Source: Gautieria morchelliformis (Eukaryota > Basidiomycota > Agaricomycetes > Gomphales > Gomphaceae). Taken from it: a stretch of 64,000 bases of DNA. Below the pieces are notes generated by a model that worked only from the letters and a program-made list of their open reading frames with translations, did no database searches and was not told the DNA's origin. The stretch's first letter is position 1. Every line of letters starts with the position of its first letter. The position numbers were made by a program, and so were the translations under genes. Location: the NCBI GenBank assembly GCA_015179125.1, contig WHVA01000357.1, positions 56,276 through 120,275 on the forward strand, written 5' to 3'. Shown piece after piece: positions 1,226 through 38,631 of the stretch.

Positions 1226-1440
1226 TCAACCATCGTCAGGTATTTCTTCCCCAGCATCAGCAAGGCTCATCATCTGGAGACCAATTTTCTCCCACACAAA
1301 AAAACTTTCCTCGTCTGAAGGGGGAAAATAAGGGTGCGGCTGTATTGAAATGACAGACTTGATCGACTTCATGTCCACGACTTTCATGCCTACATTTTCA
1401 TCGAGTTTTGTGATGGAATACACGGCCCCAAGAGACTCTT
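1226..1440 (-). pseudogene. C-terminal remnant of a Tnp2/CACTA-associated protein
   Basis: A minus-strand open frame encodes about 65-70 residues with the core VVDMKSIKSVISI, then PHPYFPP and FFVWEKIGL, ending in an acidic tail. From memory, basidiomycete Tnp2-type element proteins often end this way: a VIDVKSI..VV.MIP segment followed by FFVVEK.GL and acidic residues. No upstream domain is attached. Frame and homology stop about where the neighbouring Zn2Cys6 gene ends (1440), so this looks like a junction between two elements. Family assignment rests on pattern memory only. Confidence 0.4.
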
Positions 1441-2620
1441 CAAGAGGATGAACCCGTCGTCAATCCCTTATCCTTCGCCTTCCCCTTATTCTTTCCCTTT
1501 GATCCCCGCTCCTTAACCTCTGGCTCTCGATTATCCTTCTCATCCTTCGCCACGTACTCTAAAAGAGGGACAAGAACCCCACATGAGTTCGAACGGTGTA
1601 GGAGGAATGGGGAAAGAGGAGACTTACCCTCTGCCGCCACACAGCCCTGGCGATCATGAATACATCGCCCACACATCTTCCCCGCCTCACCACTACAGGT
1701 GTGACCATAGCGAAGGCATCGCCCACACTTCGCAGGCCTCCTCAATACGTCGTGCTACGGGGAAGCACACAGTCAGCGGGCGAAGTACTTCGACAAAAAA
1801 AAAGCATGCTGCTCACCCCCTGATAAATCAGCCACCCGAGCAAATATGCGTGCTCGGGGTAGCCATGTTTCGCCACCGACTGCGGGACCTTGTCTGCTTC
1901 GGCAACCAGGGCAGTCGCCCGACCCTTACGATGATGGGCAGGAGTTGGCTCAACCGCAACAATCTCGGGCATAGGACTCCGAGCGCGTTCCTTGCGAGGT
2001 TTCTTCGGTGTCGGAGCCTCATCGCCTTCGTCCTCGGATGACAGGAACATCGGTCGACGCTTCGTACCCACAGACGGGCCTGTAGCTGAGGGTCGGAGCG
2101 ATTCGGATGGTGCAGCGATTGGCTCAACGACAGGAGCTGAACCTTTGACAGGGCTCCCAATTAGACTCGCTAAACGAACAAAAACTTATCACGTACTTTC
2201 AGCTTCCTTCGCAGCTTCCCCCACTACCTCGGCTTCCTTCGACAGACCCCGCAACGCTGTCGTCCCTTGCACCGCGTTCATCCCGGCATCAAGGATCTCT
2301 GGGCTAAGCAGGAAGCCTGCACCCCCAAGCCACTCCTTCGCTTCCTTCACCTCCTTCACCAGGTCGTCTACCTCCGATGGACGTTCAAAATCGGGGTCCG
2401 CGATCGCTTCGACACGCAACGTGGTCCGTAGCTTGGCCTACGATCGGATGTTCAGCAAAAACCTCGGACTGAGGGCTACTCTCACCTGAAGTTCTTCAGC
2501 TTCGGCAACCCATTCCTCCACCTCTTCGCGCAAGCCCCCCCGAAAGTCAGGGCAAACCTTCAGCTTTACCCACGTTCGCTCGATAAGCACGGAGAGAGGA
2601 GACGATTCGTTATCAGTCAT
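1440..2620 (-). CDS. Zn2Cys6-cluster protein, antisense ORF of gypsy element III (5 exons)
   Basis: I can build an uninterrupted five-exon gene: exons 2486-2620, 2197-2437, 1817-2142, 1628-1754 and 1440-1558, with introns of 48, 54, 62 and 69 nt, all GT-AG and in phase, giving about 315 residues. The N-terminus is acidic and helical, the middle is rich in Ser, Pro and Lys/Arg with a basic PKKPRKERAR stretch that could be a nuclear signal, and residues about 244-272 carry C-X2-C-X6-C-X7-C-X2-C-X6-C, the spacing of a fungal Zn2Cys6 cluster. The tail is Lys/Gly-rich. The start lies 180 bp from a plus-strand LTR (2801) preceded by a polypurine tract, so the gene reads antisense to that element. 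Function is unknown; DNA or RNA binding is inference. No lesion is visible, unlike its relatives at 14192-30.4 kb and 37415-38631. Confidence 0.7.
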
Positions 2621-2787
2621 GGGGGATCAAATGGTAGAATGGACCCATTGCCTCACACCCCAACGCCTTTTAAAGCCCAGCGCTGAGCCGTGCATGGCCC
2701 AGGCGGCGAGAGATCGCATCGGGGGCACTATTACGTCTTCAAGCTCGTCCCCCGTCCTAGAGCACTACGTCGTTGGACTCCGAAGCT

Positions 2788-2800
2788 AGAAGGGGGGTGC
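2788..2800 (+). other. Polypurine tract of gypsy element III
   Basis: A purine run (AGAAGGGGGGTGC) directly abuts the TGTCATGACG start of the LTR. This is the expected second-strand priming site at the 3' end of an LTR retrotransposon and sets the element's direction as plus. The 170 bp between it and the Zn2Cys6 gene start hold no other ORF. Confidence 0.65.
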
Positions 2801-4077
2801 TGTCATGACGCGTTTATTCCTCATAACTCAGGTGCTCTGTCATGACATTTCTCACCCCATTTCCGTGCTCGTTCCGATCGCCATTGCCATATTCGGCAGC
2901 CAATGTTCGCTGATTCGACCCCGTTACCATCACCCCGCCATTGAACGCACGACCGACGGTTTTGGACTGACTTGACAAGTCATCACTGGGTCTGCCACCT
3001 CCTCTGCTCGACTCTCTCCCGATGGTATTCTGACAATCGGATTGTCACGACCTATGTATTTCCTGCACCTTGTTTCCCCCATTTTCTCGTTCGCTACTCC
3101 TCCCCGTGTTCGCTCGACTTCGCCCCTCTCTTCGGCCACGCAACATCTATGTTCCCTCCGTTCACCCTTCGCCGCATTTTCGCCGAACCGCTATTTGCTG
3201 CTCGCACATTTCGCCAACAAGGCACGCCATCAAACACGATCGATACCATTTACCCGGCGTAACGATTCATCACTAACCCCATCATCTTCTTAAATCCAAC
3301 CCCTTTGGGTTTTCATATGGCCAAAGTATGTTCGCGGAGCGTTCCTTCCATAGGTCGTGTGGGATCGACCCAGTGGATGAAGAGTCCGTGCAGGGTGACA
3401 TATATGCGGGTCCCAAGACATGCTTTCGTACATAAGTATCTTCACCACCTTTACTCTCCGTCATTTCATGTTCGCACCCCTCCCTCACTCTATTATATGT
3501 TTATTCCATCTCCTTAGTATCATGACTGCGCACCCCTATCCGACCCTGACTCGTGACGGCCTCTTTCCCATTCGCCGATACCATACGAGCATTAGATATA
3601 AGTAGTTTACATTCGCATGTATATTCCCCAGTTCAATTATCATACGTCGTCCATCTTGTGCAAACTTGACCTCGCTGTGATCATCGTCTTGAGCCCCTCC
3701 TTGGAGATTTCTATCTTCGACCAGCCAAGGACTTAGGCATCACTGGTGAGTTCTCATACTTCATCTTCGTTACCTTAGCCTTCGAACTACTTTCCATGCT
3801 GTTGGCGAAGGGCTCCTAAGGGGCACCTTCGCCAGCGAAGGGACTGTCGAAACTTAGATAGCCCTTCCGCAATATCTTGCACGTTGCGTCGTCAAGTGCT
3901 GCGAGCTGTTTCGCTACGACTGTAGACAGGGCGAGCCCCGTTCGGGCAACCCCTTTGTTTCGTCAACATTTGTCGGTTCACTTATTCGCCGAATGGCATA
4001 CCTCTTCGCACAAGTTATTCGGGCATTCATTGTGTTCACTAATACACGATATTAACGCCTAAAAACCAATCTTGACA
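2801..4077 (+). repeat. LTR, TGTCATGA family (copy A, 3' LTR of element III)
   Basis: The 1277-bp repeat begins TGTCATGACG and ends AATCTTGACA, giving TGTCA/TGACA terminal inverted bases. The same sequence recurs as a solo LTR at 34175-35446 (minus) and as fragments at 39636-40400, 13366-13462 and 42403-42432. A polypurine tract and an antisense Zn2Cys6 gene lie on its left, so it is best read as the 3' LTR of a gypsy element. The flanks GGTGC and CCCTG do not match, as expected if the rest of the element is lost. Its right end abuts and truncates copia element Q. Confidence 0.8.
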
Positions 4078-14034: not shown

Positions 14035-14191
14035 GGCCCAGACCCTCGAGGCTGTAATATGAACAAGGTTTGCCTATCCTCGAATCTAGATCCCAGCCTG
14101 ATGTTAAGTAGCCGGAAAGGCGAAGCTTAAATCATAGCCAAGGTTAGATAAAAGGCTGGGTAGGAGGCAGCAAAACCAAGTGCCAACAAAT

Positions 14192-14320
14192 ATGGTGCGC
14201 CCTCAAGTGTTGTTCAACTCTGCCGTCGACGAGAACAGTGCTAGCAACTCTTTTGACCAAACAGTACTATCACCAGAGGATGACTCCTTGGGCGAGGATT
14301 TGCCCGAGGTTCAACCCGAG
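14192..14320 (+). pseudogene. Exon 1 of the antisense Zn2Cys6 ORF, gypsy element I
   Basis: An ATG 172 bp from the LTR opens a 43-codon acidic frame (MVRPQVLF...EVQPE) that ends at a GTTAGT splice donor at 14321. The position and direction match the first exons of the ORFs at 2620 and 37415, which start 180 and 120 bp from their LTRs. The rest of the gene is at about 29333-30411, because the 14.5-kb element (14414-28957) landed in the intron. Sequence similarity of this N-terminus to the other two is weak; assignment rests on position. Confidence 0.5.
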
Positions 14321-14413
14321 GTTAGTCCGAGGTGTAGAGGACAGGAATTATAGGCAGTAGGTTTGGACTTGGTGCTCAAAAGAAGACTAGAAATTAATTC
14401 ACTACAGGATTTC

Positions 14414-14726
14414 TGTAAGGGCGACTCTAAGAGGTGCTCTACTCCCTCAAGCGGCGCCTGAGGTAGAGGAGATCCAAAGCAGTATATAATGAGTCAACAG
14501 TGAGCAGGTAAATACAAGACAGCGCACCTGAGGTAGAGGAGATCCAAAGAGAACAGAGTGAGGATCTCCTTACCTCAGCGATGAACTATATAGCTGCTAC
14601 ACAATGACATAAGCAAGCCAACATAACTGGCAGTGACACAGGAAGGGATAGGGGAGGATACAATGAAGAAGATGTGAGGAAGGGAAATAAAAGGAAATAA
14701 AAGGCAGGACAGGTGGTCCCCTGACA
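14414..14726 (-). repeat. Left LTR of the 14.5-kb element
   Basis: 313 bp, TGTAAGGGC to CCCCTGACA, with GTAGAGGAGATCCAAAG occurring twice around a TATATAA motif. It is almost identical to 28645-28957 (for example GGCGCCTGAGG versus GGCACCTGAGG). Preceded by target duplication ATTTC at 14409-14413. Confidence 0.85.
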
Positions 14727-17257
14727 TCACCCCCCTCTAGAATGCGACGTCCCGGCGCATGAGGTTCCAGGGACAAGTCGGTGCTTGGCAATCCAAAACA
14801 GGTGGGAGCTGGAGGAGGTACAAGGGGCACAAATGGCAAGCAGAGTGGCAGGGCAGTGCGTGGCCACAATAGGCGCTTGGAAGGGTGCCTCGGAGGCGGC
14901 ACATGCGGGCCAGGGGCATGAAGCAAGCTGAAGGGGGCAGTGGGAGGCATGACAGCGGTGTGCAGCAGACACGGCAAGGCCACGGTGGGAGTGTGAACTG
15001 GGCACAGAGTGTGTGGGACGTGCAGCCTGCAGGGGCATCTCCGGTGGACCTAAGGGTGGAGACACAGGTGCTGTGGCTCGTTCCGTGTGCGTACAGCTTC
15101 ATGACGATGACATTGCAAGAGCGTGATGAGATTGGGCCTCTCGTCGCACACATTGACCCCCTAGCAGCTCCAAGAATTGGAAGACGGCCCAAACTTGTTC
15201 CAGGTGAAAGCGACGTCATGGCATGTTGCGGAAAGCATGCACCAACCTCTGGATGCCTTGGCACGTCCCAGAAGCTCTTAGGCCACGATGCTCAATGCGT
15301 AATGCGGAGGGCCAATGCGCGTGCTCGCGCTGCTCCGCCCTACACCCCTCAGCCCACCACATCCCGTCGAAGGGCCATGTGCGCTCCTTCTGCAACCCCC
15401 ATGCCGCATGCCGCGCGTCAGGCTCTTGAGGCAGTGGGCGCACAACGTGGCATGTGCGCGAGCATGCACGTTGACCCAACGCACCGTAGGACGGGCACGG
15501 GTGGCATGTCTGTGAAGCAGGGCGAGTGGTGTGGGTGCATGCCTTTGGCACCTTCTCCTCCTCTCCAGGATGCGTTGTCCCAATGCATTTCCTCTGGGAC
15601 AGGGGTTCCTTGAGAGGGAACGCCGTCGAAGACGCAGTACCTCGTGTCTCGTGGGGCCTGACACACAGGGCTTGTGCGGACGGGCATACGTCTGTACAAG
15701 TCACGCGGCTCGTCGTGGCCTGTGCAGGCGGCGGCATGGTGTATCCACACGCGAGGGTTATCCACGTCGAGCTGCAGCGCTACACCCATAGGTGGGGGCA
15801 TTCCGTGGAGGCCTGGTGGCAGCCACGGTCGCGTAGAACGTGCCCGTGTGGGCCTTCAGTCTGCCATCGGACGCCTTGCCCTGTCTTGGGCATGCGGAAG
15901 CACCTCTGTCATGTGTGCGCAGCGCCTTCATGCACCATGTGATGCAGTCGCGCGCGTGCGGGGGGTGTCAAGGACGTTCGGGCAACACCGTCATGGCGTG
16001 GGTTGAGGCGTCTCCTGGGTGCGGGCTGGGACACGCAAGGCCCCCGTCCGCACTGCCAGTGGGCGTACGGGAGTCTGTGCGAGTTCTGGCGGGTGCAAGG
16101 CAAGGCTCGCTGCAGCATGCAGCATGGGGTGGTGGAGTGCCATGCACATGGGCACGTGTGGCGTTGTCCATGCACCGAAGCACTGCCATACCTTGCGTGT
16201 GCGTGCGTGGGGCTGTGCATAAGCGTGCAGCAGGCTCAGAGGCATGCGGGGACGCGGGGACGAGCGGTACGCATGGGGAGTTGCGTGACAGGTGCGCGGC
16301 GTGCTGAACGCTGTCGGGAGCAGGACGACATCTGGGGCATGCAATGTGGGACATCCACGGGGATGTCAGGGCATGCGTGGCTGGGAGGACTTGGGTATTA
16401 TCGGTGCAGGAGCACGGGAACGTGCGCCCAGCGCAGAGTGGGGGAAACTCTCACCCCCTCTCTATGGTGCGTCGACCCGACGCACGTTTAAGTCGCCACC
16501 GCCTTGACGCACGTCTACCCCGACGCAAGCTGTCCTTGCCTGATCCCTGACCTGTGCTACCCCATGCTCGTGGATGGAGCCTACCCGGCCCATCAACCCA
16601 CGGGTCAGAGGGCGTGCACGGGGAGGGCTTAGACCGGAGGGACGCTGTGCCTATCCCCGGGTGCAGTGGACCGTTCCACCGACGCGTGGTAGCCCAGGAC
16701 CGCGCCGATGTGGTGGATGCGCAGGCGTAGGCGACTGAGGGGCTCTGCAGTCTTCACAGCCTGCGCCAGAATTAGGTACCCTCTCTCTCACTGGAGTTCA
16801 ACCTCAAGCATTGCGTTCCCTCCGCGTCCAAGTCACGAGGCGACGGACGACGGCAGGCTCCACAGCATCGTGTGTGACGTATACACCTCGCACACAATGC
16901 CGATAGAGTTTCTGGCTGTCCTCTGTGCTTCCCAGGGCTGCAGATCGCTCCTTCTCGGTCCTCGGGGCCATCGCAGGGTGCGCCCCGAGGCGTACCGAGT
17001 GCTCGACGTAAACGTTGACACGTGCTGGGTCCGTACTGGCCTGGGCATACACGTGCGTGACAGGCGGTGTGCGCAAGTAGAAATGGACGTGCGGGCACCT
17101 GGCTACGCGGTTGGAAGAGCCGATGTAGGCGGCCTGGGCGGATGGCCTCGGACTGCGTTGCATGCCCCATCTCTGGTCGGGGGTTTCGCGCGTAGCCATG
17201 GCTCGCTGGAGGTGACGGCATCCTGCCTGAGACATGTGGCATGCGCAAGGCGTGCAC
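14727..17257. other. GC-rich, CpG-rich interior of the LARD-like element (left half)
   Basis: About 2.5 kb of strikingly GC-rich sequence full of CATGCG, GTGCG and GGCATG words, unlike its AT-leaning neighbours. Long open frames occur in all six frames (for example 14885-15613 plus), as expected when stop codons are depleted by composition. None has recognisable motifs, and opposite-strand frames are equally long, so I do not call genes here. Confidence 0.6.
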
Positions 17258-18725: not shown

Positions 18726-19037
18726 CTATCCCCCCTTTCAAATGTTCGCTTTAGACCAATTCTACATCTTCAAAATTCACTGAAGAATTCCTGGAAGGTG
18801 CTGGTGTGCAGGGTACTGGTCAGAGTTGATGCGAGTATTGAAAGATGGTTTTGGAGACAAGTAGTCGATAGTAGAAGGATGAATAAAATAGGGATAACCG
18901 AGGGCGGCCTGTTCTTCGAATAGCTGCGCAAAGGAAGGCTGCCATTTAATGACTTGCTTGTTATGGTCGTTATGCTCGGTGTCGATGATAGGATGGATAG
19001 AGGAACAGTGAGCTTTGTTAGAAATTCTCCTTGAGAG

Positions 19038-19741
19038 TCAAATTGCTAGGAGATGAGTCACGAGTCCTCTTGCGACTCTGTCGCTCCGTACGGACTCCAA
19101 GAGTGTAAGTTTTGGTTCAAGCCAATGCTCATGTTCGGCTTCATTGGAAATAGTCGTAGTATAACGAGTACGAGTGTTGAAACTCATATCTTCGCTGTAA
19201 CGACGTCTGAGGGCCTCATAGAAGGGAAACTTTGTGGTGAGGTCCATGTATGCGTCATCTTCGTCGTCCTTGATGCTGAGCAAGGTCTTGCCAGGTTCGA
19301 GAGGCCACTTCCAGGTGCAGTCCTCGAGATCGACGCAGTTTTCTTTTGCTTTAGCAGTCCACGCGGTGAGTTGATGGCTGTCTGCTGCCACCTTTCAATC
19401 CACGACTCTATTTCGCTTTTCTCTCCAGGTATTTTCAAGAAATTGAAAGTGAGGTAATTGTCGGGTGGAATGGGAGCGCATATCATGCTGATTTCCTGAT
19501 ATTGTTCATCAGGAATGGTGAGTGGGAGTGTATTGGAATCAACATCTCCTTTCCAGCCTGCGGCGGCGGCAAGGATGTATCGACACTTCATGCGCACGGC
19601 TTCCCAGATACTGTCTGCAAGTTCAGGACGGAGGTAGACATAAGTCTTTCCAAATAGGAAGACAGTCGTCCAGTCGTGATGTCCAGGTTTGTAGTATTCA
19701 AAGTTGTCGGTGTGCTGGAACTCGAACTGAGGCATGGACAC
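19038..19741 (-). pseudogene. Extra ORF downstream of integrase in the nested chromovirus (unknown)
   Basis: Between the integrase stop (20003) and the 3' LTR (18725) lies a minus-strand frame beginning MSMPQFEFQHTDNFEYY and continuing through WTTVFLFGKTYVYLRPEL, CAPIPPDNYLTFNFLKIPG and, after a single frameshift near 19380, CTWKWPLEPGKTLL and FPFYEALRRRYSED. If joined it would be about 230 residues, with no signal peptide or membrane segment visible. It occupies the position where some gypsy elements carry env, but nothing here resembles an envelope protein. I do not recognise the family. The coherent amino-acid texture over two frames argues that it is a real, recently broken gene. Confidence 0.5.
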
Positions 19742-21650: not shown

Positions 21651-22996
21651 TTCTGTCTCGAAAATTGAAGGTAAGGCTCGTGCATTTTCATCTTCAAATT
21701 CTGCTACTAATCGAAGTGTTCTGGCTTCGAAATCAGGAGCTATTTCCGAGTAGAGATCGGTGAGTGAGTCTTGTTCTGGACTCAAGACTGTGTGCGTTGA
21801 TTTATCTACCACAGGACCATCTTGATGTGGTACGTTTCGTCGAAGTCGTGAAATAGGGTCTACGTTTGAGTGTACTCGTCCGGCACGATGTACGATCTTG
21901 AGGTCAGGGTAGGCTGCGAATACAGTTCCCCATGTGAGTAGTCTTCTATTCACGTTTTGAAAGGTTCGACTCCAAACTAATGCTGCGTGGTCTGTGATAG
22001 CCGTAATCTTTTCTCCTTCAATGTAGGGCTGGAACTTGACTAACCATCTCTCAGTGCCAATGCTTCTCGTTCTGTTGGTGAGTAGTTTCGTTCTGCTGGT
22101 TTAAGTGTTCTAGACCAGTAGGCTATCACTCTTTCTACATTGACCACTGTATCTTCAAAGTTCTGATTCCAATTCTCATTAGGTACCAGTTCTTCTGTAT
22201 TAGAGACAGAGATTACGAGTTGTGGGACAGGTTTCTTAGACATGAATGCCGCTTGTAATTTATCATAGGCCTTGGTGCCCTTTAAATCACGGATTTTTAT
22301 TGGCTGGACTTGCTGCAGAATAGCTGCAATTCCGACATCACATGCCTCTGAATAAACTCTATATCCCAACCCAGGAATAGCATAAGCTCTAATGGGGGAG
22401 CTCACTAGTGCAAGTTTTGCAAGTTCAAATGCTTCTTGCTGAGTTTGAGTCCATTCCCAGTGAGCTTCCTTTTTCAATAGTTCAAATAAGGGAGCTACTA
22501 TCCATGCATAGAAGGGGATGTATGCAGAAAAATAAACCATCATTCCAAGGAAGGTTTGTAATTCATGCAAATTTTTCGGTTCTGCTAGTTCTAATATTGC
22601 ATCCACCTTTTCTTTATGAGTGGAAAGTCCTAACCTTGACACTTTTTGTCCCAATAGCATTAGAGACTGAAATGCTATATGACATTTGGCAGGTGCTAAG
22701 GTGAGTCCTGACTTTGAAATAGCTCTAAAGACTTGATCCAAATGCTGGAGGTGATCATCAAAGGTTTTAGAGTAGATTACAATGTCATCAATATAGACTA
22801 GTGAAAATATCCATAGAAATGGTGCAAGGACATTCTGCATCACACGTTGGAAGGCACTCGGGCCGTTTCTGTATCCAAAAGGCAAATGTCTGAATTGGTA
22901 CAGGCCTCGGTGTGTTCTGAAAGCAGTTTTCTCCTTGGCATCATCAGCTAATTTTAGCTGGGTGAACCCTGATAAGGATCTAAGGTGGTAAGCCAT
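21624..22996 (-). pseudogene. Chromovirus reverse transcriptase (C-terminal part) and RNase H
   Basis: The frame 22040-22996 holds the RT palm with FRTHRGLYQFRHLPFGYRNG, the catalytic YIDD box (VYIDDIVIYSKT) and HLQHLDQVF, then the RNase H start (YRVYSEACDVGIAAIL). A stop near 22040 and another break precede the RNase H/tether end at 21624-21953 (NRRLLTWGTVFAAY, RAGRVHSNVDPISRLRR). A one-base loss near 22990 shifts it out of frame with the upstream protease-RT frame. Confidence 0.85.
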
Positions 22997-25092
22997 TGCG
23001 AACCAGTAAGGGCTTGCAAGAGGGCATCCTGTCTGGGCAATGGAAACTCATCTGGTATTGCTTTCTCATTCAGCTTTCTGTAGTCAATACACATACGAGG
23101 CTTCCCATGGCGATAGGAAATCAGAGCAGGAAATCCCCAAGGACTTTTGGATGGTTCAATGACTTCAAGTTGGAGCCACGCATCCATTTGTTTGTCAATT
23201 ACTTCCCGCTTGGCAGGTGAAGCATTGTATGGAGGAAGAGAGACCTCCGTTGCTCCCGGTCGTAAGGGAATTTCTACCTTAGCATCATAATTTCCAAGCC
23301 TTCCATCCAAGCCAAATGCGTTGTGATGCTTTTTGACAAGTTTTTTCAAGGTAAGAAGTTGTGAGCTATTGAGATCAGGTGAGAAATCAACTTCGTCAAG
23401 TAATTTTGACTTTGGGACTTCCTCTGCAGGATGTTCTTGGGTTTTAGGTCCACCATTTGATAAATCTTCAATTTCAGGACTGGAGTCTGAGGTATTCTCA
23501 GTTGTAGCCTCTGAAAATTGTTGTGCCACTGCTCTGAGCAGCTTAGAGTGCTGGTCAAGCATAGTAAGCTTGTCATAATCAAGCTTTGAAGGGCAGTCTA
23601 ACCATGAGTTAGGATTTCTGGCATGTCCAAGCAGTTGCCCTTGATGAACGGTAACTGAACTCTTGGAGAAGTTATTCACATGCAACTGAGGTTGTTGCCT
23701 GGAAACAATTGCATCTGAGATTCCATAGAAATCTTCTACACCTCTGTTGGAGTGTAAAACCTTTTCTACATATACTTCATTGGAGTTGCCAGGAAAGTAG
23801 ACAGCTACTGGAACTGTGGCAGCACTTTCAGGTGGAATTGAAACAGATTCTAGTGCATGTACGTTTGAGTTGGCAATCCGAGCTCTAATCTGTTTCTTGG
23901 TTTTCTTAAGACGTCGATGAGCTTTGAACTTAGCTAATGAGGATGGCAAATTAGGTAAAGTTCTAATTTTAAATGTGTGCCCATTTTCATCTTGCAAAGA
24001 TGTTCCAACTGAATTCTGGATAATGGTGCAACGACCAGAAGTTCCAAATGTAAGGTAGCTTTCTGTTCCTTCTCTCATGATTGAGATGGAATACTGATCC
24101 GCAAAGTCATCCCCAAGGATTACTGGTGTAGTCATACCTTTCACAACATATGCCTCAACTTCAATCTGGACAACCCCAGAATCAGTGTCAAAGAATATTG
24201 GTAAGGTGACAAAGCCTGATATTTTGGAAGTACCAGTAACCTGAATCAGGTTGACTTTTTGGCCTGTTTTAACTTTTGGAGGATTGGTCATTGAGGACAA
24301 AGCTTTCTGGGATATAAGTGTGATGTCTGAGCCTGAATCCGCAACTAGTGTCTGCTGGTTCTTCTCATATTCATTGAGCCACACTTTAGTAGTGGTAGCA
24401 TTTGATCCCAAGAATGCACATCCTGCTGGCCTGGACATGTACCGTTTCAATTTCAGCAAAGAGTTAGGAGCCCAACTAGTCAGTTTGGATCCCCCAAGGA
24501 AAGTAGAAACATGTTTGGCTTCACGCATGAGCCTGCGATGTTCTGTCCTGCCTTTGGGAGTGACTTTCAAGTCCGTTGTTGTACTCTTAGATGAAATATC
24601 AGGTAATGTTGTTTCCTCTATGTGATTTGATCCCCCCTGACAAGATATACCCTTTAAGAGACTTATGTTAGGTCGAACTATGTTGCAGTGTGCAGCATCA
24701 GGTCGATCAGATTCAGAATCCTCAGGTTTTTCTTGATCAGTCGTATTACTAGCTTCAGTGGAGGCTGTCATAAAATTGGTACAAGCTTTTTCCAAGTTTT
24801 CTTCTTCAGTCTCACTGTCTGTATCATAATACAGGGCATCATAGGCTTGCTGAGCTTCCATCCCTTCAGGAGTTAGGGCTACGTAATTGGAATGAGCTCT
24901 ATGAGTTCCTGTCTTGGAATGTTTGCACTCATTGTCCCAATGCTTTCTGCTACCTTTCTGTTCAGGTGTAGATCTTTGAGAGACATTAGAGTCATCACGA
25001 GGGAATTTAGGAGGGTCCATTTTTGGTGACCATCCAACCAAACGTGATCTGGCAACACGGTAAGGTCTGTTTGAATGTCCAATTGGATCCAT
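22954..25092 (-). pseudogene. Chromovirus gag C-terminus, aspartic protease and RT N-terminus
   Basis: A 712-codon frame. It starts in the gag tail with a half zinc knuckle (GSRKHWDNECKH; the first CXXC pair is absent), has the retropepsin motif VADSGSDITLI near residues 255-265, a second structural stretch VILGDDFADQY, then an RT start with VIEPSKSPWGFPALI, KPRMCIDYRKLNEKA and FPLPRQDALL. The frame ends at a one-base deletion where SLSGFTQL should continue. The missing CXXC of the knuckle is a notable loss for RNA packaging. Confidence 0.85.
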
Positions 25093-26150
25093 CCGTGAGC
25101 TTCGAGTTACGTAATGGAATGATATCTCCCAATTGTTGAAAAACTAAGTCAGATCTGTTGGCAAGGTGGTTTACTTTCAAAATCCACTGCACTAAAGTAT
25201 CTGGATTACCATCCCATTCTGGAATGATTTCCGGACGCAGCTTATTATCAAAGTAAGCTTCAGTCTTGCTTTGTCTGTGACTGGTGTCATGAGCAACTAG
25301 TCTTTTTCTAAAGCCATCCCCCCTGCCTGGACTAGGCTTTCTACCATCTCCATTGTCACTGTCATCCCCGTCATCTCCTGGTGGACCTCCACCTGCATTA
25401 CCCGAAGGCTGGCCATCATGGTTGTCTGAAGGTCTAGCCATTGGCCGAGGTACTTTAGGTGATTCTGAAGTATCCGAGTCTGATGAGCTATTGTCATCAT
25501 CAGGAGGTTTCTTGTCTCTAAGAATTGCTTCGGACTTAGAAACTGGATAAGAATGAGTGGGAACCATAGGAGTAGGTGTCTCTGGTACACTGAAGATGGT
25601 TTGTCTTCTAGGGTGCTTGGAGGGATTAAACATCTCTTCTAAACCTTCAGAATTCGAAAGCTTGGTTGGATTCTGATGGTAAGGTGAAGTGATGACCGAA
25701 GAAAGACGAGGGCCTCTGTTGTAGGCTACTGACTGTCTATGTTTGATCTGTTGATGGTCTACTGGACTATCCGTACTAAATCCCACTTTTGGAATAGTAG
25801 TTTGGGAAGTTCTAGGTATTCTCATCTGCTCTCGAGTAGGGTCTGTAGGCATAGCCATGTGCGGAGGAGACTCTCTTGTAATAGAGCTTTCAGCAACAGC
25901 TGAATGTGTTTTAGCTCCATCAAACAGTTGATCGGCTAGGCATTTTCTTGAATATGCTTCATGAGCTGCATGATACCTCTTGCAGAACATATCCATGTCA
26001 TTAGGATTGCTAGGGACAGAAGGAAAAGCCGGCGAAGATATATTATCTTTGGAAGCGAGCCTGTATGTTCCTTTGTCTTTTGCTACAATATCCCAATAAA
26101 ATGCTATGAAGTTTTCTGCATCTTCACGCAAGGTGACACGTCGCCGCACT
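25007..26150 (-). pseudogene. Chromovirus gag, 5'-truncated
   Basis: Minus-strand frame with ENFIAFYWDIVAKDKGTYRL, a Ser/Pro/Asp-rich middle, and the gag core start PEWDGNPDTLVQWILKVNHL. The core is then cut: sequence jumps from IIPLRN into the protease frame, so most of the capsid-like domain is deleted. Upstream of about 26150 the composition becomes GC-rich LARD sequence, so the first ATG available (26185) lies in foreign DNA and the 5' LTR, primer site and gag start are missing. Confidence 0.7.
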
Positions 26151-28644
26151 TGCATGCGTGAGCGGGCGCGCGGCGGCACGTCCATCGGTACCGAACCTCG
26201 CGCACGTTCGTGACGTCGCGACGCGTGCGACGTGGGCGGTAGCGCTGTAGTAGGGGTGCTGTAAGGCCCCTAGATCCCGTGGGGTGCTCGCGGTGCCATG
26301 TGGGTCCGGGGGGACGTCGGACGGTGCATCACGCGTCACACGCTCGCTGATGCCGAGGCCATTGCCCAGGTTGCAGCCGGGCAATGGGTGTGCGTGCGCT
26401 GGTGGAGGCGAGTGCGCGCAAGCGCAGTGGCACGGTCATTGGCATAGGGCCGCGCAGCACCGCGTCATGCATTCACGCGTGCGCGTGGATGGGCGGTAGC
26501 GCGGTCCCAGCATCTGTGGCTGCTGGTGCTGGTGCTGTACGGTCCACCAGAGCCCGCAGTAACGGGAGGCGGGCGGGGTCGTCTCGGTGCTGCACCGTGG
26601 ACGCACAGCGGGGTGCCCGCAGTGCCATGTGGGTCCGGGGGGGACGTCGGCATCGGACGGCGCATCACGCGTCACGGGCTCGCTGATGCCCAGTCATTGC
26701 CTAGCTCGCAGCTGGGCAGGTGCGCGTGCGTGTGCGGTGGAGGCGAGTGCGCGCAAGCGCAGCGGCGTGGTCGTTGGCACAGGGCCGCGCAGCTCCGCGT
26801 CATGTGTGCGCGTGTGCGCGCGTGGATGGGCGGTTGCAGGGTCCCACGGGTCCGTAGGGGTCGGTGTCGCACTACTGTGGACCGCCGTGGCTCGTCGTGG
26901 TCATGCATCATGGATGGGTGGTGGAGAAAGGTCAGATGGGAGCGCAAGGGAGACACATGGAGACGCGGTGGATCGTGACGGGTTGCGCGGTACCTGTGCT
27001 TTCCCGGGTGCGTTCTCACCTCATACATCCTGACCCTCCTTCCACTCATCTGGCCCTAACTCCACTCCTGCCACAGTGCCGTGCACCAGGCCGAGGTCCT
27101 TGCTGGCCGGACCCTTGGTGCGTTGAACTGGGCTCGCCTCGTGGGTCCCTGTACAGGGAGCGCCGAGTAAGAGATGGAAGGGACAGTGGCGGGGTTGGAA
27201 ATTAGTGCGCAATGTGCGCAGCCTGCGCCACGTCAAAGGGACTTGATGCTTGTCGAAAATCCCTATGAGATGGGTGCAACGAAGGGCACGTCACGCGCCC
27301 TGCCACGCACATATTGACCTCAATTCCGGCCGGTCTGCGGAGGTCCCGAGGCACTTGGCACGTATACGCACGGTATCGGGGCTGTGCAGCATGCGTGACG
27401 AGCAGGGAGGGAGGTGCACGTCGGGGAAGGGGTGCGGTGGCCGTGCGGCTACAGCGAGGCGTGGCGGAAGCCTGCGCGGCGGCGAAGGGGTTTCGTGGTT
27501 CTAGGGGCACCGTGGGTCGCCGGTACCGCATGCCCTGGGGCTGTACGACGTCGAGGTGCAGTTGGGCATCGTGGCGAAGCGGGAGGGGCGGCGCGACGCA
27601 CGGCGGGGGGTGCCCACCGTATCCTGTGGGTGCCCATGTTGTTGCGTTACACTGGCAATCGCACGCGTCCACTCTGGTGGCATGAGGTGCTCATCACCTC
27701 TCGCTCGCATGACTGCTGCGTTCGGGCGGCATGTCCGAGTCGATGCACGCACGATGCGCGTGCAAGGGGGCAACTCCTGTGCACAGCTTGATGCATGAGG
27801 AAAGGGGGCGTGCGTGGGGGGTCCGCGCAGCCTACGTCCTGCGGGCCCGGATGCGGGTCGTAGCGGCTCACGCGTGGGGCAATGGAGTCGAGGGGGCGGG
27901 TGCGCTATGCACGCGGTTGTGAGCTGTCTCGGCAGGTACATCCTCTCTCCACCTCTCTCGTGCATGCTGCGACCAGGCCTTGCTTCAAGACAGAGGTTTC
28001 GCGTGTGGGCCCCGTCGAGTGCATGCCATAGATGATTTGCGGTGCGTCCTTCTACAGCTCGTGTGTGCGCTCCTTACTGACCCTGTCTTGTTACTTCCTC
28101 CTTTAACAGAACATAAATTAAAAAAAAACCAAGTCGGGAAGTGGAAGGAGGGGTTGTGTTGTGGATGGGGTTCGGACAGAGGAAACACGAAGGCAGTCGG
28201 ATAGATGGGGTACAGGGTTTGAGGGAAGGGGTCCGGATCGAAGGGTGACATCGTGGGGAGGTGCACGGGTTTTAGTTGACATCAGGTGTACGTTGGATAC
28301 AGGTAGTTCGGAATAAGGATGTAGGGGGGTTGTGGTTTATGGTGTCGCCTTGGCCTTCAGAGGGCGGTGCACCCTACTGGCATTGCGCGCAGCGGTTTAT
28401 AGTCCCCAGAACGGTACACTCTCTCACAGGAACACAAGGAAAATGCCTGAAAGAAAGACACCGGTGGCAGCTGCTAACGCAACGTGGGATCCTTCCACGT
28501 TCGGTCTGCGCAATCTCCAGCCAGGCTGCCGGTCTTCGAGAAGGAAGAGGGACGTCACGGAAGCGACGTACGCAACACAGAAACTCATCGCATTCGGTAC
28601 GCCCAGTCCGAACCGTCGGTCTTCAGGGGGTGACTCTGTTCTAC
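26151..28644. other. GC-rich interior of the LARD-like element (right half)
   Basis: Same compositional signature as 14727-17257. Internally repetitive: the segments about 26280-26500 and 26600-26840 share GCCATGTGGGTCCGGGGGG, CGCATCACGCGTCAC, GAGGCGAGTGCGCGCAAGCG and GGCCGCGCAGC in the same order, a diverged tandem duplication of about 350 bp. Long open frames on both strands look compositional. No retroviral motifs. Confidence 0.6.
26284..26870. repeat. Diverged tandem duplication in the GC-rich interior, about 350-bp period
   Basis: Shared blocks in order: GTGCCATGTGGGTCCGGGG at about 26295 and 26621; GCATCACGCGTCAC at about 26327 and 26660; GAGGCGAGTGCGCGCAAGCG at about 26405 and 26742; GGCCGCGCAGC at about 26447 and 26782; and a GTGGATGGGCGGT box at about 26487 and 26822. 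Spacing is constant at about 330-340 bp. Confidence 0.7.
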
Positions 28645-28957
28645 TGTAAGGGCGACTCTAAGAGGTGCTCTACTCCCTCAAGCGGCACCTGAGGTAGAGG
28701 AGATCCAAAGCAGTATATAATGAGTCAACAGTGAGCAGGTAAATACAAGACAGCGCACATGAGGTAGAGGAGATCCAAAGAGAACAGAGTGAGGATCTCC
28801 TTACCTCAGTGATGAACTATATAGCTGCTACACAATGACATAAGCGAGCCAACATAACTGGCAGTGACACAGGAAGGGATAGGGGAGGATACAATGAAGA
28901 AGATGTGAGGAAGGGAAATAAAAGGAAATAAAAGGCAGGACAGGTGGTCCCCTGACA
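28645..28957 (-). repeat. Right LTR of the 14.5-kb element
   Basis: 313-bp partner of 14414-14726, same ends, followed by the target duplication ATTTC at 28958-28962. Confidence 0.85.
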
Positions 28958-29332: not shown

Positions 29333-30411
29333 TTGGTGCAGGAGCATAAATGCACCCAACACGAGGCCCATCGAGGATGATGGTGCCATAGACATGCGGG
29401 AGCTGTGGCAGGAAGGGCCGAAATGCAAGAAGGTGAGTACCGTAGTTCTCATCATGGATGTCATGTCGCTGACTCGAGTAGTATAAACAGATGCTATTCG
29501 CATACCACCCCACAGACTTGTCCTTATACGGGTACAAGCTCACTGACGGAGGGCCCCGCGAGTGGCAGCTTGTGACGAAGGCCGAGGCAAGGTGCACCCA
29601 CTGTGAAGAGCGCGACTACACGTGCCTTCGCGCTGTTAGCCTAGACTTCAGGCTCGCCGACCTCGGGGCCTGCGTATGGTGCAGGACACGATCGCTGGGC
29701 TGCAATATAGCCCATGGCCGTTGCGGTAAAGCGAACAAGGGGAAGGGTCAGGCGAGTGAGGCAGGCAAGAAACGGGTGTGGAGCAAGGATAGCGATGATG
29801 GACCGAGGCCGAGGAAAGAGGCCAAGGTTCGGGATGAGGTTGAGGATGAGGATGACTCAAGCGATTGGGTTGAGCGAAATTTGGAGGCGAGGGTGGAGCG
29901 AATGGAAGTGAGGCTGAGCAAGGACAAGGGAAAGGAGGTTGGGGAAGCGAGGCAGAGTGAGGGGAGAGAGGTTGGGGAAGCGAGGCAGAGCGAGGGGAAG
30001 GAAGCCGAGGTGGAGGAAGGTCGGAAGGCAAGGAAGGACAAGACGACGAAAAGGTCGGAGCAAAGTGTGGAGATGAGGGAATTGATAGCGGCGGTGAGGG
30101 ATGTGGGGTGAAAGGTGGGCGAGGTTGGGGAGAAGGTGTGTGAGTTGTTGGGGGAGCTTAGGGCTGCGAATGATAGGATGAACGGGGCGGATGTGGAATT
30201 CATGAGGATAAGGAGGAGGCGAAATTATTTCAAGTGGATGCAGGTGGCGAGAGACTTGGCGGAGTATGGGGGAAATGGGGGTCTAGTGGAGAGGAGTAGT
30301 AGTAGCAATGAGGTAGTAGTAGCAATGAGGAGGAGTCAGGCGAGGATAGCGAGGTTTGTTTTGTTCTGCGATTGCGAGGGATTTTTGCCATCTAACTACT
30401 GGGGGTTCATG
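29333..30411 (+). pseudogene. Antisense Zn2Cys6 ORF of gypsy element I, 3' exons
   Basis: After the nested insertion, an exon ending in MRELWQEGPKCKK (donor GTGAGT at about 29434) can splice to an acceptor near 29515 and read LSLYGYKLTDGGPREWQLV, then C-X2-C-X6-C-X15-C-X2-C-X6-C (CTHC...CVWC...), a Lys-rich stretch and long charged helices with EVGEARQSEG repeated. One TGA at 30109 interrupts the frame and would be CGA before a CpG transition; reading continues as KVGEVGEKVCELLGEL...FKWMQVARDLAEYGG. It converges tail-to-tail with the chromo-integrase of the same element (from 30432). With the exon at 14192 it forms one gene split by a 14.5-kb insertion. Confidence 0.6.
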
Positions 30412-30431: not shown

Positions 30432-31478
30432 TCATAGAGCAGTCAAAGGTCCCGGCTTGCCCAGATAAGACTCATGAAAATCTGTGACTAGCTCCGAGGC
30501 ATGGTCAAGCTCGGAAGCGAGGATCCACGAGGTTTCTTCGTCGGTACCCTCGTAACCAGTCCACCTAACAAGATAGAGCAGCTTGCAGCTCTTCTGTCTA
30601 TTATTGATCTTCGAGTCGAGGATTTCCAAGACTTCGAACTCAGGCTCGCTGTTGATGATGACTGGGGTGGAGGCAGCTGAACTCGGTTTGGAATGGTGTT
30701 GGGCGAGGCTGGTTCGAGCATGGATACGTGGAATACTGGATGGACTGAATGCATGTGTTCTGGAAGTTGAAGGGTGAAGGAGTGGGTACCCGCTCGGGAA
30801 ATGATCTCAAAAGGACCCACAAACTCCTCGGCGAGCTTCTTAGTGGGCCGAGTTGTTCTGAAGTACTGTGCCTTTACAAAGGCGAGGGATCCTACTTGGA
30901 AATCAGGGGCAGGCTTGCGACGAACATCGGCCGAGGCTTGGTAGGTCATTTGAGCCTCGAGGATGGCATGGCGAAGTTCTTGGTGAAGCTCGTCCAGGTC
31001 AATCACGAAGTCTCGAGCTCGTGCCGAGGCGAGGTCGTGCTCGGGGTGAACCGCGAGGTTGGGGTGGTAACCCTTGTTAGCAAAGAACGGGGATATACCA
31101 GTGCTAGGCGCATTGGGATGATATCCCGAGGTGAAATGCAACCGCATGTCCAAGGCCTTCCCTAGAGAATGCCAAAAGTGGGAGACGAACTCGGAACCCC
31201 TGTCTGAGGTGACGTGTGAGGGGACTCCATGCTTGAAAAAGACATGAAGGACGAAGAGGTGAGCGAGCTCTTGCAAGGTTATCTTGTCTGTGGTTGGAAT
31301 GAAGATAACCTTCTTAGTGAAGTGGTCAACAATCACTAGTATGGAGGTGAACTCGGATGAAGGTGGGAGCTGCTCAATGAAATCCATAGAGATGGAATTC
31401 CAAGGCTTCTCGGGAACAGGAAGTTGTTTGAGGAGACCATAGGGCTTGTGACGTTGCGGCTTGCTTCACATACAAGTA
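30432..31478 (-). pseudogene. Integrase and chromodomain of gypsy element I
   Basis: Minus-strand integrase: CTTC zinc pair, TGA at 31466-31468 (CGA in relatives, by position), MDFIEQLPPSS (first Asp), TSDRGSEF (second Asp). The frame then jumps from SGYHP directly to NAPSTGISPFF, an in-frame deletion of roughly 50 codons that removes the catalytic Glu block still present in element II. After a frameshift near 30640 the chromodomain follows (LLYLVRWTGYEGTDEETSW). Homology stops at about 31480, so the zinc-finger His pair and all of RT and gag are missing. Confidence 0.85.
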
Positions 31479-34174: not shown

Positions 34175-35446
34175 TGTCAAGAGTGGTTTTTAGGCGTTAA
34201 TATCATATATTAGTGAACACAGCGAATGCCCGAATAGCTTGTGTGAAAAAGTGTGCCGTTCGGCGAATAAGGTGAACCAATACATACACGTTCAGAAGGT
34301 AAGACGGCTGCCCAAACGGAGCTCTCCCTATCTACAGTCGTAGCGAAATAGCCTGTGGCACTTGATGATGTAACATGCAAGTTGTCACGGAAAGGTTGTC
34401 TAAGTAGCAACAATCCTTTCACCGATGAAGGTGCTCCTTCAGAGCCCTTCGCCGACAGCACAGATAATAGTCCGAAGGCTAAGGTAACAAAGGTAAAGTA
34501 TGAAAACTCACCAGTGGTGCTTAAGTTTTCCTCTGGTCAAAGATAGAAATCTATAGGAGAGGGCCCAAGAGGATGGTCGCAGTGAGGTCAAGTTTAGCAC
34601 AAGATGGACGTATGATAATTGAACTGGGGAATATACATGCGAATTTAGACTAGTTATACCGAATGTTCATATGATGCTAGCGAATAGGGAAGAGGCCGTC
34701 TTGAGCCAGGGTTGGATAGGGGTGGGCAGTCAGGATACATAAAAGACGAAACACGTATACAATAGAAACAAGGAGGAGTGTGAATGTGAAACAATGGGGA
34801 GAAAAGACGATGAAGGCACCTATGTATGAAAACACGCCTTGAGACCTGCATATATGGTACCCTACACAGACTCTTCGTCTGCTGGGTTGATCACACACGA
34901 TCTACAGTTAGGGCATCCTGTGAAGGCACGCTGGCTATATGAACACCTAAAGGGGTTGTGTCGGGAAGATGATGGGGCCAGTGATGAACCATCACGCCGG
35001 GTAGAGCATGTCGATCGTGTTTGATGGCGTGCCTGCTGGCGAATGATGCGAGGAGCGAATGGTCGTTCGGCGAATGTGGCGAAGGGTGAATGCAGCGATC
35101 ATAGATGAGGTGTCATCGGATGGCAGGGTGAAGCCGGGCGAACGCGAGGGAGGAGTGGTGAAAGGGAAAACAGGGATAGCTGGGTACAAGAAATACACGG
35201 GTCGTGACAATCTGGCCATAGGAACATCCAAAGGGGGTTGAGCCAAGGAGGTAAGAGGGCCCGTGATGAACCATCAAGCCAATCAAAGGACGTCGATCGT
35301 GCTTTGATGGCATGGCCATGGTGAGTGACGCAAGTAGCCACGATTGTTCGGCGAACTCGGAGAAGGGCGATCAGAGCGATCATAGAGGTGGAGTGATGAA
35401 GGGGAGGACAGAGCTCCTGAGCATAGGAAATAAACACATCATGACA
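34175..35446 (-). repeat. Solo LTR, TGTCATGA family (copy B)
   Basis: 1272 bp matching LTR copy A in reverse, with ends TGTCATGATG and CTCTTGACA. It is flanked on both sides by CATAC (34170-34174 and 35447-35451), a perfect 5-bp target duplication. The paralogous locus at 43583-43587 has a single CATAC and no LTR. A solo LTR with intact target duplication means insertion followed by LTR-LTR recombination. Confidence 0.95.
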
Positions 35447-36567: not shown

Positions 36568-37294
36568 TGTTACGTATCGGAATTCCCGGAGGTCGGAACT
36601 GGAAAGGACAATGGCTTCAACTTATGTGTTGCGCCCCTGATGAACTACCGTCCTAAGTATTTCGGAATTGACTTGCGGATATCGGAAAAGGCGGAAGGCA
36701 GAACAGAGTACTGAGGGTCGAGGGGCGTGGGTCAGAGAACAAAGGTCGGAGGAGGCGGAAGAGGCGGAGGACAGGGGATCGAGAGCAGAGGGAGACAAGA
36801 CTAGCAAAACTCACTGTGCTAAGAACAGGAGACAGTCCGAAGGGAATCACGTATCGAAGTCGATTATCTGATTGCAGAAACGGAGACATACATGAGGGGG
36901 TTTTATACAAAGAGCAGAAGCAACAGGTAATGGTATGGTACTAAGCAAATTCCAGAGAGTGCAGGAATCGGATAGACATACGGGGCAAGTAACTAATGCG
37001 GAACAATGGGATGACAAGGGGGGTGCAGGGTAGGGTAAGTACAATGGCAAAGAACAAGGCGAGTAAGTACAATAGGCATTGGAAGAAACGGAACTACGGA
37101 AATGGTATCTTGCTGTGTTCAGGGTTGAGTATGGGGGCCGGTATCTGGAGGTGGCCAGGGGTACTGAAAGAACAAGGGGTCGAGGTAGAGGGTTGCGGAT
37201 GTTGCAGATGTCAGAATAGAGTCGGAGGTGGTACGGAGGTGGTGCAGAGGATATGTGGAGGTGGCGGAGATGGTTGAGCGGAACAGTCGTAACA
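36568..37294 (-). repeat. 3' LTR of gypsy element II
   Basis: 727 bp starting TGTTACGTATCGG and ending CAGTCGTAACA, giving TGTTACG/CGTAACA inverted ends, followed by the minus-strand polypurine tract. It resembles the LTR at 13463-14019 in ends and several internal blocks but is clearly diverged. Confidence 0.7.
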
Positions 37295-37311
37295 GTATCT
37301 CCCCTTCAAGG
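37295..37311 (-). other. Polypurine tract of gypsy element II
   Basis: GTATCTCCCCTTCAAGG on the plus strand, purine-rich on the minus strand, abutting the LTR. It places the 3' end of a minus-oriented element here, 104 bp before the antisense ORF start. Confidence 0.7.
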
Positions 37312-37414
37312 TCGAGCCCCGCGAGACCACAGATCGGGTCACGTGACCTGTGAACAAACGCGTCGGAGTTCGAAAGAAAGGCGGGAGAAACAACATGTTG
37401 AATTCTGATCCATC

Positions 37415-38631
37415 ATGAGCTCCCTTCCTGAATTCTCAAAAATGACCAGTGCTCAGATGAAAGAGCACTTCGCTAACGTTCTCGCCGAGAAGGAGCTCGC
37501 AGAAAAGCGCGAGGCCGAGGAGGCGGCTCAGAAGGAGAAGGAGCGACTGGAGGAGGAGTGCAGGGAGGAAGAGTGCAGGGAAAAAGAGCGCAAGGACCAG
37601 GAGGAACACGACCGACTGGAATGTGAGCACGAAGACCGCGAGCGTGAACTCGAGCGCACCGAGCGCGAACGCAAGGAGCGGGAGGCCGAAGAAGCTGCGG
37701 AGAAACTTGTGGAGGAGCAAGCTGCTGCGGAAAAGGCCACCGCGGAGAAGGCTGAGGAGAATCGTGCATTGCAGAAGGTAAGTGTTTCTTGCCCTTGATA
37801 GTATGTGGTTGACCATCGGAACAGGAAAAAGCTGCGGACGCAGACCAGGAATCTGAGCAGAGTGGGTCTCCGTCGGAAATGTTGCCGGAAGAAACCCCAA
37901 GGTCAAGGAACAAGGGCAAGGGAAATGCGGCGGCGGAATGGCGGGCGGCGCAAGAGGAGAAACAGCGCCGGAAGGAGGCACACCAGTCCGGGGCCAAGAG
38001 AGCGGCTCCGGAAGAGGACGGATCTTCCCAGCAGAGCTGCAACACTTGCTTGGAGAAGAATCTGCCGTGTGTTTGGGATTTGGCCGGAAAGGCCACAGCG
38101 TGTAACCGGTGCAAGGACGCAAAACGGGCGTGTTTGGTGGATGGGCTCAAAGCACGCATGACGGCCAAGCGGAGGAAAACCAGAGGATCGGAGGTGGGCT
38201 CGGAAAAGCCTGTACAGGGTGCGCAGAAACCCTTGTCCAGGGCTGTGAAAGCGAGGGAAGTCCACGACGCGCCGGAGGCGAGCGGAAGTGGGACGACGCG
38301 GGAGGAGCAGACGGTGGATCCACTTGCGGATGTCGCCAGATCGCTCCGGGGGCTGCTTCAACAGGGGGACCAGGGGTTGCGGATGCAACACCAGTTCTAC
38401 CTGGCAGTCCCGGATCGGTTGGGCGCATATGAGGAGCTTCTCGACCAAGTCGTCGCAGAGTTGAGGTGGACGCAAGAGAGGAGGGATTCAGAAGTGGAGG
38501 CGGAAGTATCTGAGGGCGAGGTGCAAGACGTGCAGAGGTTTGCAGAGTCGTATGGTCTGAACGGAAATGCGGAGGATCCGGAAGCAGAAGACTGGGCGGG
38601 CTTTGGTGATAACACCCTGGAAGATGACTAG
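37415..38631 (+). CDS. Coiled-coil Zn2Cys6-cluster protein, antisense ORF of gypsy element II
   Basis: Two exons, 37415-37777 and 37825-38631, separated by a 47-nt GTAAGT...CAG intron, encode about 388 uninterrupted residues. Residues about 20-125 are an extreme Glu/Lys/Arg/Ala heptad-like region, almost certainly a coiled coil. Residues about 193-224 show C-X2-C-X6-C-X10-C-X2-C-X6-C (CNTC, CNRC), followed by a basic stretch (TAKRRKTR) as in fungal zinc-cluster proteins. The C-terminal 120 residues are amphipathic and acidic, ending DWAGFGDNTLEDD. It starts 120 bp from the element's 3' LTR, reads opposite to gag-pol, and converges on the chromo-integrase 130 bp away. Classic zinc-cluster regulators have the cluster near the N-terminus, so this is not a standard one. 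Function unknown. Confidence 0.75.

Follow-up and report, generated by a model that had tools for sequence, protein, structure and literature searches.

Comparison with Described Systems

Antisense accessory genes are a known feature of long terminal repeat (LTR) retrotransposons, and the general arrangement has been published for plant LTR elements and for the fungal element Boty (PMC7264820, PMC11963269, PMC8365987, PMC4227169, PMC5987419). Nuclear or regulatory roles are suggested without proof in part of that literature (PMC7264820 and PMC11963269 among the sources). Here, antisense genes of this kind are described for Gypsy elements in a 64,000-nucleotide stretch of the Gautieria morchelliformis genome (assembly GCA_015179125.1, contig WHVA01000357.1, positions 56,276 to 120,275 of the forward strand), in the following called the window. 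It contains three genes, A, B and C, each next to an LTR and each encoding a protein with a motif of six cysteines (Cys6 motif), and a sister gene of C, type D, was found elsewhere in the genome. These are very likely selected, element-borne genes for Zn2Cys6-like proteins, and within the C/D group the antisense gene has been swapped between near-identical element backbones. The genes described here come with a DNA-binding-like predicted fold, introns, TATA boxes (A and B) and many copies.

The plant aORF-3R genes of Retand, maize Grande (gene23) and rice RIRE2 are likewise antisense accessory open reading frames (ORFs) of Ty3/Gypsy elements, and Grande gene23 has its own promoter (PMC7264820; PMC11963269). 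As in these plant elements, the ORF in the B, C and D elements lies between pol and the 3′ LTR, antisense to gag-pol, and it is present in most copies and conserved in its coding sequence. The plant proteins carry TRP28 (Retand) or SMC-like domains, whereas the Gautieria genes are distinguished by introns, a predicted Zn2Cys6-like fold and cassette exchange. No Pfam match to a TRP28 domain was listed for the three window genes and four D proteins at E-values up to 10, and the word “zinc” does not occur in PMC11963269. The Boty-like elements of Botrytis cinerea are also fungal Gypsy elements with a chromodomain and an extra antisense gene, brtn (Zhao 2011, cited in PMC8365987 and PMC4227169; PMC7264820).

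Fungal Zn2Cys6 regulators such as Gal4, Leu3, PPR1 and Pho7 resemble the Gautieria proteins in cysteine spacing, predicted fold and the long helix that follows, whereas the latter stay below the Pfam cut-off, have the basic stretch in the second half-site and are borne by retrotransposons. HBZ is a bZIP protein of a retrovirus, human T-cell leukemia virus type 1 (HTLV-1). It is encoded antisense, is located in the nucleus and plays a key part in the cycle of this virus (PMC11963269), whose antisense promoters are located in the 3′ LTR (PMC10186651). The likeness to the Gautieria genes is one of functional analogy only, as these encode a Zn2Cys6-like cluster and carry, in A and B, their TATA box within the leader that lies inward of the LTR; no bZIP match was listed in the Pfam scans of the window genes and D proteins. 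VANDAL is a DNA transposon, and its VANC belongs to another protein family. VANC is likewise encoded by a transposable element, sequence-specific and fast-diverging, and it acts on its own families (PMC5735166).

The first-pass annotation of the window knew of no description of the arrangement. The general arrangement turned out to be published; for a Zn2Cys6-like, intron-bearing or cassette-exchanged antisense gene no description was found in the open-licence literature, and the word “antisense” is absent from the main texts of PMC2864245, PMC3411680 and PMC5381629. The arrangement itself is thus known in kind, and the cassette exchange goes beyond the earlier observation.

Antisense Genes of the Window

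The features of the three elements are given below with their strand. The polypurine tracts, which adjoin the 3′ LTRs, were read from the sequence, and the outer ends of the LTRs are approximate.

1440..2620, minus strand: gene A, antisense, modelled with five exons; Cys6 motif at 1641-1727
2666..2674, minus strand: TATA box of gene A (TTTAAAAGG), about 52 bp before the ATG
2790..2800, plus strand: polypurine tract of the A element
2801..3780, plus strand: 3′ LTR of the A element (TGTCATGA...)
14146..14154, plus strand: TATA-like box of gene B (GATAAAAGG)
14192..14320, plus strand: first part of exon 1 of gene B, interrupted in the window; copies L070 and L071 are uninterrupted
29333..30411, plus strand: rest of exon 1 of gene B, intron (29433-29481) and exon 2; Cys6 motif at 29593-29703
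30488..31387, minus strand: integrase of the B element (rve and Tf2-1-like SH3), convergent with gene B
36601..37294, minus strand: 3′ LTR of the C element (TGTTACGACTG..., TGTTACG type)
37295..37305, minus strand: polypurine tract of the C element
37306..37414, plus strand: leader of gene C with a TCACGTGACCTGTGAACAAA block that is kept, changed in some copies
37415..38631, plus strand: gene C with exon 1 (37415-37777), intron (37778-37824) and exon 2 (37825-38631); Cys6 motif at 38038-38133
38760..39633, minus strand: C-terminus of the C-element integrase (Tf2-1-like SH3 and Chromo), convergent with gene C

The three Cys6 loci of the first-pass annotation, with spacers of 7, 15 and 10 residues in A, B and C, could be confirmed at their positions. 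All three have the Zn2Cys6 spacing CX2CX6C-X5-16-CX2CX6C; this strict pattern occurs three times in the six-frame translation of the window and in none of 60 order-2 Markov windows. The six cysteines are invariant across 17 aligned fragments of B, C and D, and the motif of gene A likewise has CX2CX6C-type spacing. The distance from the ATG to the inner LTR edge is 180 bp in A, about 172 bp in B and 120 bp in C, which agrees with the 120-180 bp noted before. The genes are predicted to contain introns, as had been claimed: gene C has a single intron of 47 nt and gene B a single one of 46-49 nt, and in gene A four are modelled at about 2485-2438, 2196-2137, 1816-1755 and 1627-1559.

Other parts of the first-pass annotation had to be revised. 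Several LTR families are indeed involved, and their number, given as at least two, was corrected to three: TGTCATGA (A), TGTTACG (C) and TGTAAGG (B). Convergence of the gene on a chromo-integrase holds for B and C; none was seen beside gene A in the window. The positions of the window copies stood, and their condition was amended. Gene B is split by about 15 kb and has an in-frame stop in exon 2, and the frame of its integrase is broken before the chromodomain. The stop codons of gene C and the C-type integrase are 128 bp apart; this integrase is interrupted by an internal stop and, at 39636-40401, by an inserted LTR of the type at 2801.

Placement and Presence across Element Copies

The host genome comprises 122 Mb in 1,113 contigs and contains 124 matches to gene C, 155 to gene B and 227 to gene A, the latter counted exon by exon. 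Some loci of the assembly seem to be near-duplicates (the pairs L013/L014 and L067/L068 resemble each other), and the numbers are therefore not counts of independent insertions. The integrase and gene matches used in the following are the best-scoring ones listed (150 integrases per type), and the fractions are lower bounds. At least 116 of the B matches are free of stops (among the 150 of 155 that were listed).

Gene B is listed beside at least 82 of the 150 listed B-type integrases. All 82 pairs are convergent, with starts 895-1476 bp apart, and the other orientation does not occur. For the C-type integrases, an antisense allele occupies the convergent slot in at least 116 of the 150 listed, and 34 are without a listed allele. 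Conversely, tblastn placed a C- or B-type integrase downstream of the gene and reading towards it in 29 of 30 fetched gene-C loci. An LTR-C match is present in 27 of these 30 loci, and the polypurine/leader block was found in the same 27 as well as in five of five D loci.

The view that the gene is missing beside many C-type integrases was given up, since all five loci that were fetched carry the type D gene (frame broken in L074 and L076), whose motif is the more classical CDTCEVKGLECVWSENPRETACERCRDKKRRC or a near variant. Four of the five had no listed gene-C match and one (C97) had a match of 41%; C374 (L074), which carries type D, is among the 34 C-type integrases without a listed allele. 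Five of the 68 B-type integrases without a listed gene B were fetched as well, and all carry it, a variant or a remnant: two copies are Cys-less, one is frame-shifted, one consists of the C-terminal part only and one is shortened inside. Full-length relatives without the ORF, which the first-pass annotation had named as evidence against its idea, were therefore not encountered among these five C-type and five B-type loci.

In gene B, the Cys region is deleted in L083 and L086, which are located on different contigs. Compared with the intact L070, these copies are 95-100% identical per 150-bp window, except for the outermost window of L083. L083 and L086 are nearly identical beyond the common deletion, as if a deletion derivative has spread.

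The C and D elements are chromodomain Ty3/Gypsy elements (chromoviruses), and the C integrase exceeds the Pfam cut-offs of both SH3_Tf2-1 (73.6 bits) and Chromo (28.6 bits). In two type D elements, C131 and C367, both LTRs are present and the 5-bp duplications match across about 8 kb; both look like genuine insertions. The LTRs, which are of the form TG...CA, are 97.4% identical over 683 bp in C131 (duplication TGGCC) and 99.7% identical in C367 (2 differences in 674 columns; duplication CTGAC). C367 thus moved recently.

Gene A is also located antisense beside a 3′ LTR. The 30 fetched A loci include overlapping and duplicate ones, and 24 of the 30 gave a match to LTR-A. No match to a B- or C-type integrase was obtained in 29 of these 30 loci, L066 being the exception. 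One A element, C14 (L069+L044), was read between its LTRs, the match to the 5′ LTR being partial. It contains a Retrotrans_gag domain (31.1 bits, cut-off 24.1); no pol was found, and Pfam gave no match at E-values up to 1 for the ORFs scanned from gag to gene A. The A elements may for this reason be non-autonomous, and since their pol-less status refers to this one element and the 29 of 30 loci, an autonomous partner may exist. The gag-like ORF of the same element contains an 11-bp tandem repeat (CTCTTCGCAGG) in about 60 copies (L069 4898-5551), which is open in several frames.

Selection, Introns and Promoters

The ratio of nonsynonymous to synonymous substitution rates (dN/dS) was calculated by the Nei-Gojobori method. 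For gene C, the eight copies without internal stops among the 30 fetched loci were used, and five stop-bearing copies were kept apart. The stop-free copies gave a dN/dS of 0.20 (28 pairs, range 0.16-0.40) and of 0.10 in the Cys region. In the other five frames of the same alignment, the values were 0.35-1.69 and every copy contained stops. Gene B gave 0.23 (3 pairs from three of four copies; L072 was dropped for a frame shift in exon 1). For gene A, the codons were taken from tblastn pieces of copies without stop, covered by more than 85% and more than 50% identical (17-23 per exon); exons 1-5 gave 0.28, 0.39, 0.29, 0.12 (the Cys exon) and 0.19. Purifying selection on the antisense genes is clear, and the comparison between copies proposed in the first-pass annotation yielded low values for all three genes.

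The intron of gene C begins with GTAAG in 27 of 30 copies and ends with AACAG in 27 of 30; among the exceptions, L031 and L036 are rearranged and L012 and L022 depart at one border. T[T/A]TAAAAG stands 51-53 bp before the ATG in all 18 aligned A leaders, which represent those among the 30 fetched loci where exon 1 was matched. The TATA-like box of gene B is found in eight of eight aligned leaders including that of the window, L087 being left out of the alignment because it has no exon 1. The C and D leaders have TCACGTGACCTGTGAACAAA in common, changed in some copies, and show no clear TATA box.

Exchange of the Antisense Gene between Backbones

The C/D antisense gene has been swapped between near-identical backbones. 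In five elements (L073, L074, L075, L077 and L013), the integrases are 98-100% identical with dS values of 0.01-0.08, compared over C-termini of 186-189 codons, and in nine of the ten pairs the antisense genes are only 50-79% identical, with dS ranging from 0.9 up to saturation. For L073/L077, for example, dS is 0.04 in the integrase and 1.14 in the gene, at a gene dN/dS of 0.22. The tenth pair, L074/L075, has a common allele (gene dS 0.07, 97% identity) and a different U3 region in the LTR. U3 is 96-98% identical in six of the nine diverged pairs and 67-72% identical in the three pairs with L074.

The same pattern was obtained in 100-bp windows. Between L013 and L075 or L077, identity is 89-100% in the LTR, 34-80% in the gene and 92-100% from the integrase stop onward; between L073 and L075 or L077, it is 95-99% in the LTR, 58-87% in the gene and 96-100% in the integrase. 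The divergence begins at or just inside the leader and ends near the gene end or the integrase stop. In L013, a C-type gene is located between a D-type U3 and a D-type integrase, and L074 combines a D gene and a D integrase with another U3. Furthermore, 27 integrases have an equal score (386.5 bits); 19 of them have a listed allele, falling into four identity classes (12, 3, 1 and 3), and eight are without one listed. Diverged alleles in near-identical backbones require recombination, which would most simply be template switching between co-packaged RNAs. In the B family (7 loci), no strong island of divergence between the flanks was found; divergence is raised only modestly, for the most part in exon 1.

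Rank correlations over 18 of the 35 C/D loci (153 non-independent pairs) were 0.81 for leader and gene, 0.46 for U3 and gene and 0.20 for integrase and gene. A strict pairing of gene allele and LTR was considered, and support for it is weak, given the U3-gene value and the mismatches in L074/L075 and L013.

The first-pass annotation had proposed that the gene is inherited with the element lineage. C and D are clearly homologous, with an hhalign probability of 98.5%. Comparisons of A or B with the other types bring all six cysteines into register with a probability of only 1-19%, and for this reason a common origin of A, B and C is not claimed. The C/D gene moves between backbones by exchange and so departs from simple inheritance with the lineage.

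By analogy with the immunity region of temperate phages, leader and antisense gene might together form an exchangeable identity cassette, although this is doubtful. A new allele would then let a successful pol backbone escape, or newly engage, a control that resident copies or the host impose, which is equally tentative. No less speculatively, frequency-dependent selection would keep old alleles while pol is homogenised, and C and D would represent “immunity groups”. Regulatory groups defined by alleles would, if they exist, be a retrotransposon counterpart of phage immunity. As different alleles occur in nearly identical backbones, function is directly testable by comparing alleles in one backbone.

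Similarity to Zn2Cys6 Proteins

Structure models were compared with known folds using Foldseek. With the predicted Cys-region model of D, C and B, 25 of 29 matches are Zn2Cys6 regulators, among them Leu3, Pho7, PPR1, GAL4, PUT3, HAP1 and AlcR; each match is weak, the best having an E-value of 0.21. The remaining four are three CBF3 entries and one Elongator entry. All 17 matched entries that were re-examined have the Zn2Cys6 fold. The model of the whole exon 2 was uninformative (2 matches, E-values of 5.2 and 7.2), and PDB sequence searches gave no meaningful match. In the model of type D, the Cys region is followed by a helix of 74 residues, which is taken as a putative coiled coil. A search of viral contigs revealed no relatives.

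The designation as Zn2Cys6 in the first-pass annotation is supported by the spacing and the predicted fold and falls short at the Pfam cut-off. The whole proteins A, B and C do not match Pfam Zn_clus.

Function and Alternative Explanations

Overall, the genes are probably best explained as antisense accessory genes of Ty3/Gypsy elements that act on their own family. We infer that the likeliest function is that of a nuclear, sequence-specific self-regulator, and self-regulation as the role of the protein has about an even chance of being correct. The gene lies on the antisense strand between the integrase (the gag region in the A element read) and the 3′ LTR, and it would be transcribed from its own promoter in the leader just inside this LTR. 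In the sense genomic RNA, the introns would be reversed and hence remain unspliced before reverse transcription; because the gene is carried in this RNA with reversed splice sites, introns could survive in a retrotransposon. The Zn2Cys6-like protein would dimerise, bind DNA in the nucleus and act on its own element family in trans. LTR or leader sequences are its most likely sites, and there it would set the level of expression or oppose silencing; expression of the gene, DNA binding, target and sign of regulation are all putative. That the product binds DNA in the nucleus is suggested by the selective constraint on its sequence, by the TATA boxes and by the predicted fold. Action in trans is suggested by the Cys-less copies, which are almost identical to intact ones, and by the A element that keeps the gene without pol.

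Several observations weigh against this self-regulator. The Cys-less copies of gene B seem to have spread, and the Cys domain would therefore not be needed in cis. The five gene C copies with stops also have a low dN/dS (0.23, 10 pairs), which shows that they broke recently or that their older history prevails; such values are expected of recently broken copies and do not prove every copy to be functional. The link between gene and LTR type is loose (rank correlation of 0.46 between U3 and gene), so that a strict one-to-one pairing of protein and LTR is not favoured. The Zn_clus profile is matched only in part by the Cys segments, and the cut-off of PF00172 (21 bits) is not reached by A (13.7 bits), B (15.3 bits), C (18.0 bits) or the D proteins of L073 (19.4 bits) and L077 (17.7 bits). 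Moreover, the first half-site lacks the usual basic residues and the basic stretch is found in the second half (CERCRDKKRRC in D). Gal4 differs from type D in the placement of this stretch.

A possible special case of self-regulation, with host silencing as the opponent, is an anti-silencing factor that would bind non-coding parts of its own family and remove repressive chromatin or DNA methylation, as VANC does. Fast-diverging, exchangeable alleles under purifying selection within types would fit such an arms race, and related VANC proteins act on different spectra of transposable elements, with targets varying between related ones (PMC5735166); the selection measured here, however, is purifying and not positive. 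A factor for integration targeting or nuclear import, working with the integrase or the pre-integration complex and choosing sites by its zinc cluster, is improbable. The gene adjoins the integrase in B, C and D, and the plant Grande counterpart is nuclear (PMC7264820), but the C-type integrase already has a chromodomain, the alleles change while the integrase stays 98-100% identical, and gene A is retained in the A element read, where no pol was found.

For such elements, silencing by way of antisense transcription has been considered possible (PMC7264820), and the product could accordingly be an antisense RNA that pairs with the genomic RNA and gives rise to small RNAs. This is highly improbable, because the dN/dS of 0.20 is confined to the annotated frame, the splice borders are conserved and a Zn2Cys6-like fold is predicted, all of which shows that the protein is selected; in addition, gene and pol do not overlap, as seen from the 128 bp between the stop codons in C. 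Ordinary zinc-cluster genes exist elsewhere in the genome (17 matches over the Pfam cut-off), but host genes that came to lie beside LTRs by chance, or passengers captured once, can practically be dismissed. As the first-pass annotation had assumed, the genes belong to the elements: chance flanking is ruled out by the copy number (more than 100 matching stretches per gene), by purifying selection and by the uniformly convergent position (all 82 B pairs among the matches listed), and two type D elements have both LTRs and target-site duplications. That the cassette pattern is an assembly artefact, produced by chimeric joins between near-identical repeats, is suggested by the 1,113 contigs and the near-duplicate loci (L013/L014; L067/L068) and is nevertheless very unlikely: the pattern recurs on separate contigs (C131, C97, C374, C367 and C309), C131 and C367 are bounded by two LTRs and by matching 5-bp duplications over about 8 kb, and the 19 of 27 equal-score integrases with a listed allele fall into four identity classes.

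Further Features of the Window

The two pieces of gene B are parted by a nested LTR-type insertion and further unmatched sequence. The insertion (14414-28957, 14.5 kb) is flanked by the target-site duplication ATTTC, has LTR-like ends at 14413-14712 and 28644-28943 that are 99% identical over the 300 bp compared, and appears to be young. Copies of the TGTCATGA LTR were also found at 39636-40401 and 34477-35446, with 74-78% identity to the one at 2801. A unit of about 118 bp is present in five tandem copies with alternating spacing at 40388-41114. Furthermore, two elements of about 5 kb are located in opposite orientation between 47486 and 60650, and their bodies are 90-94% complementary. Their short LTRs were found at 47498-47729 and 52263-52494 (98% identity) and at 56121-56348 and 60406-60633 (97%).

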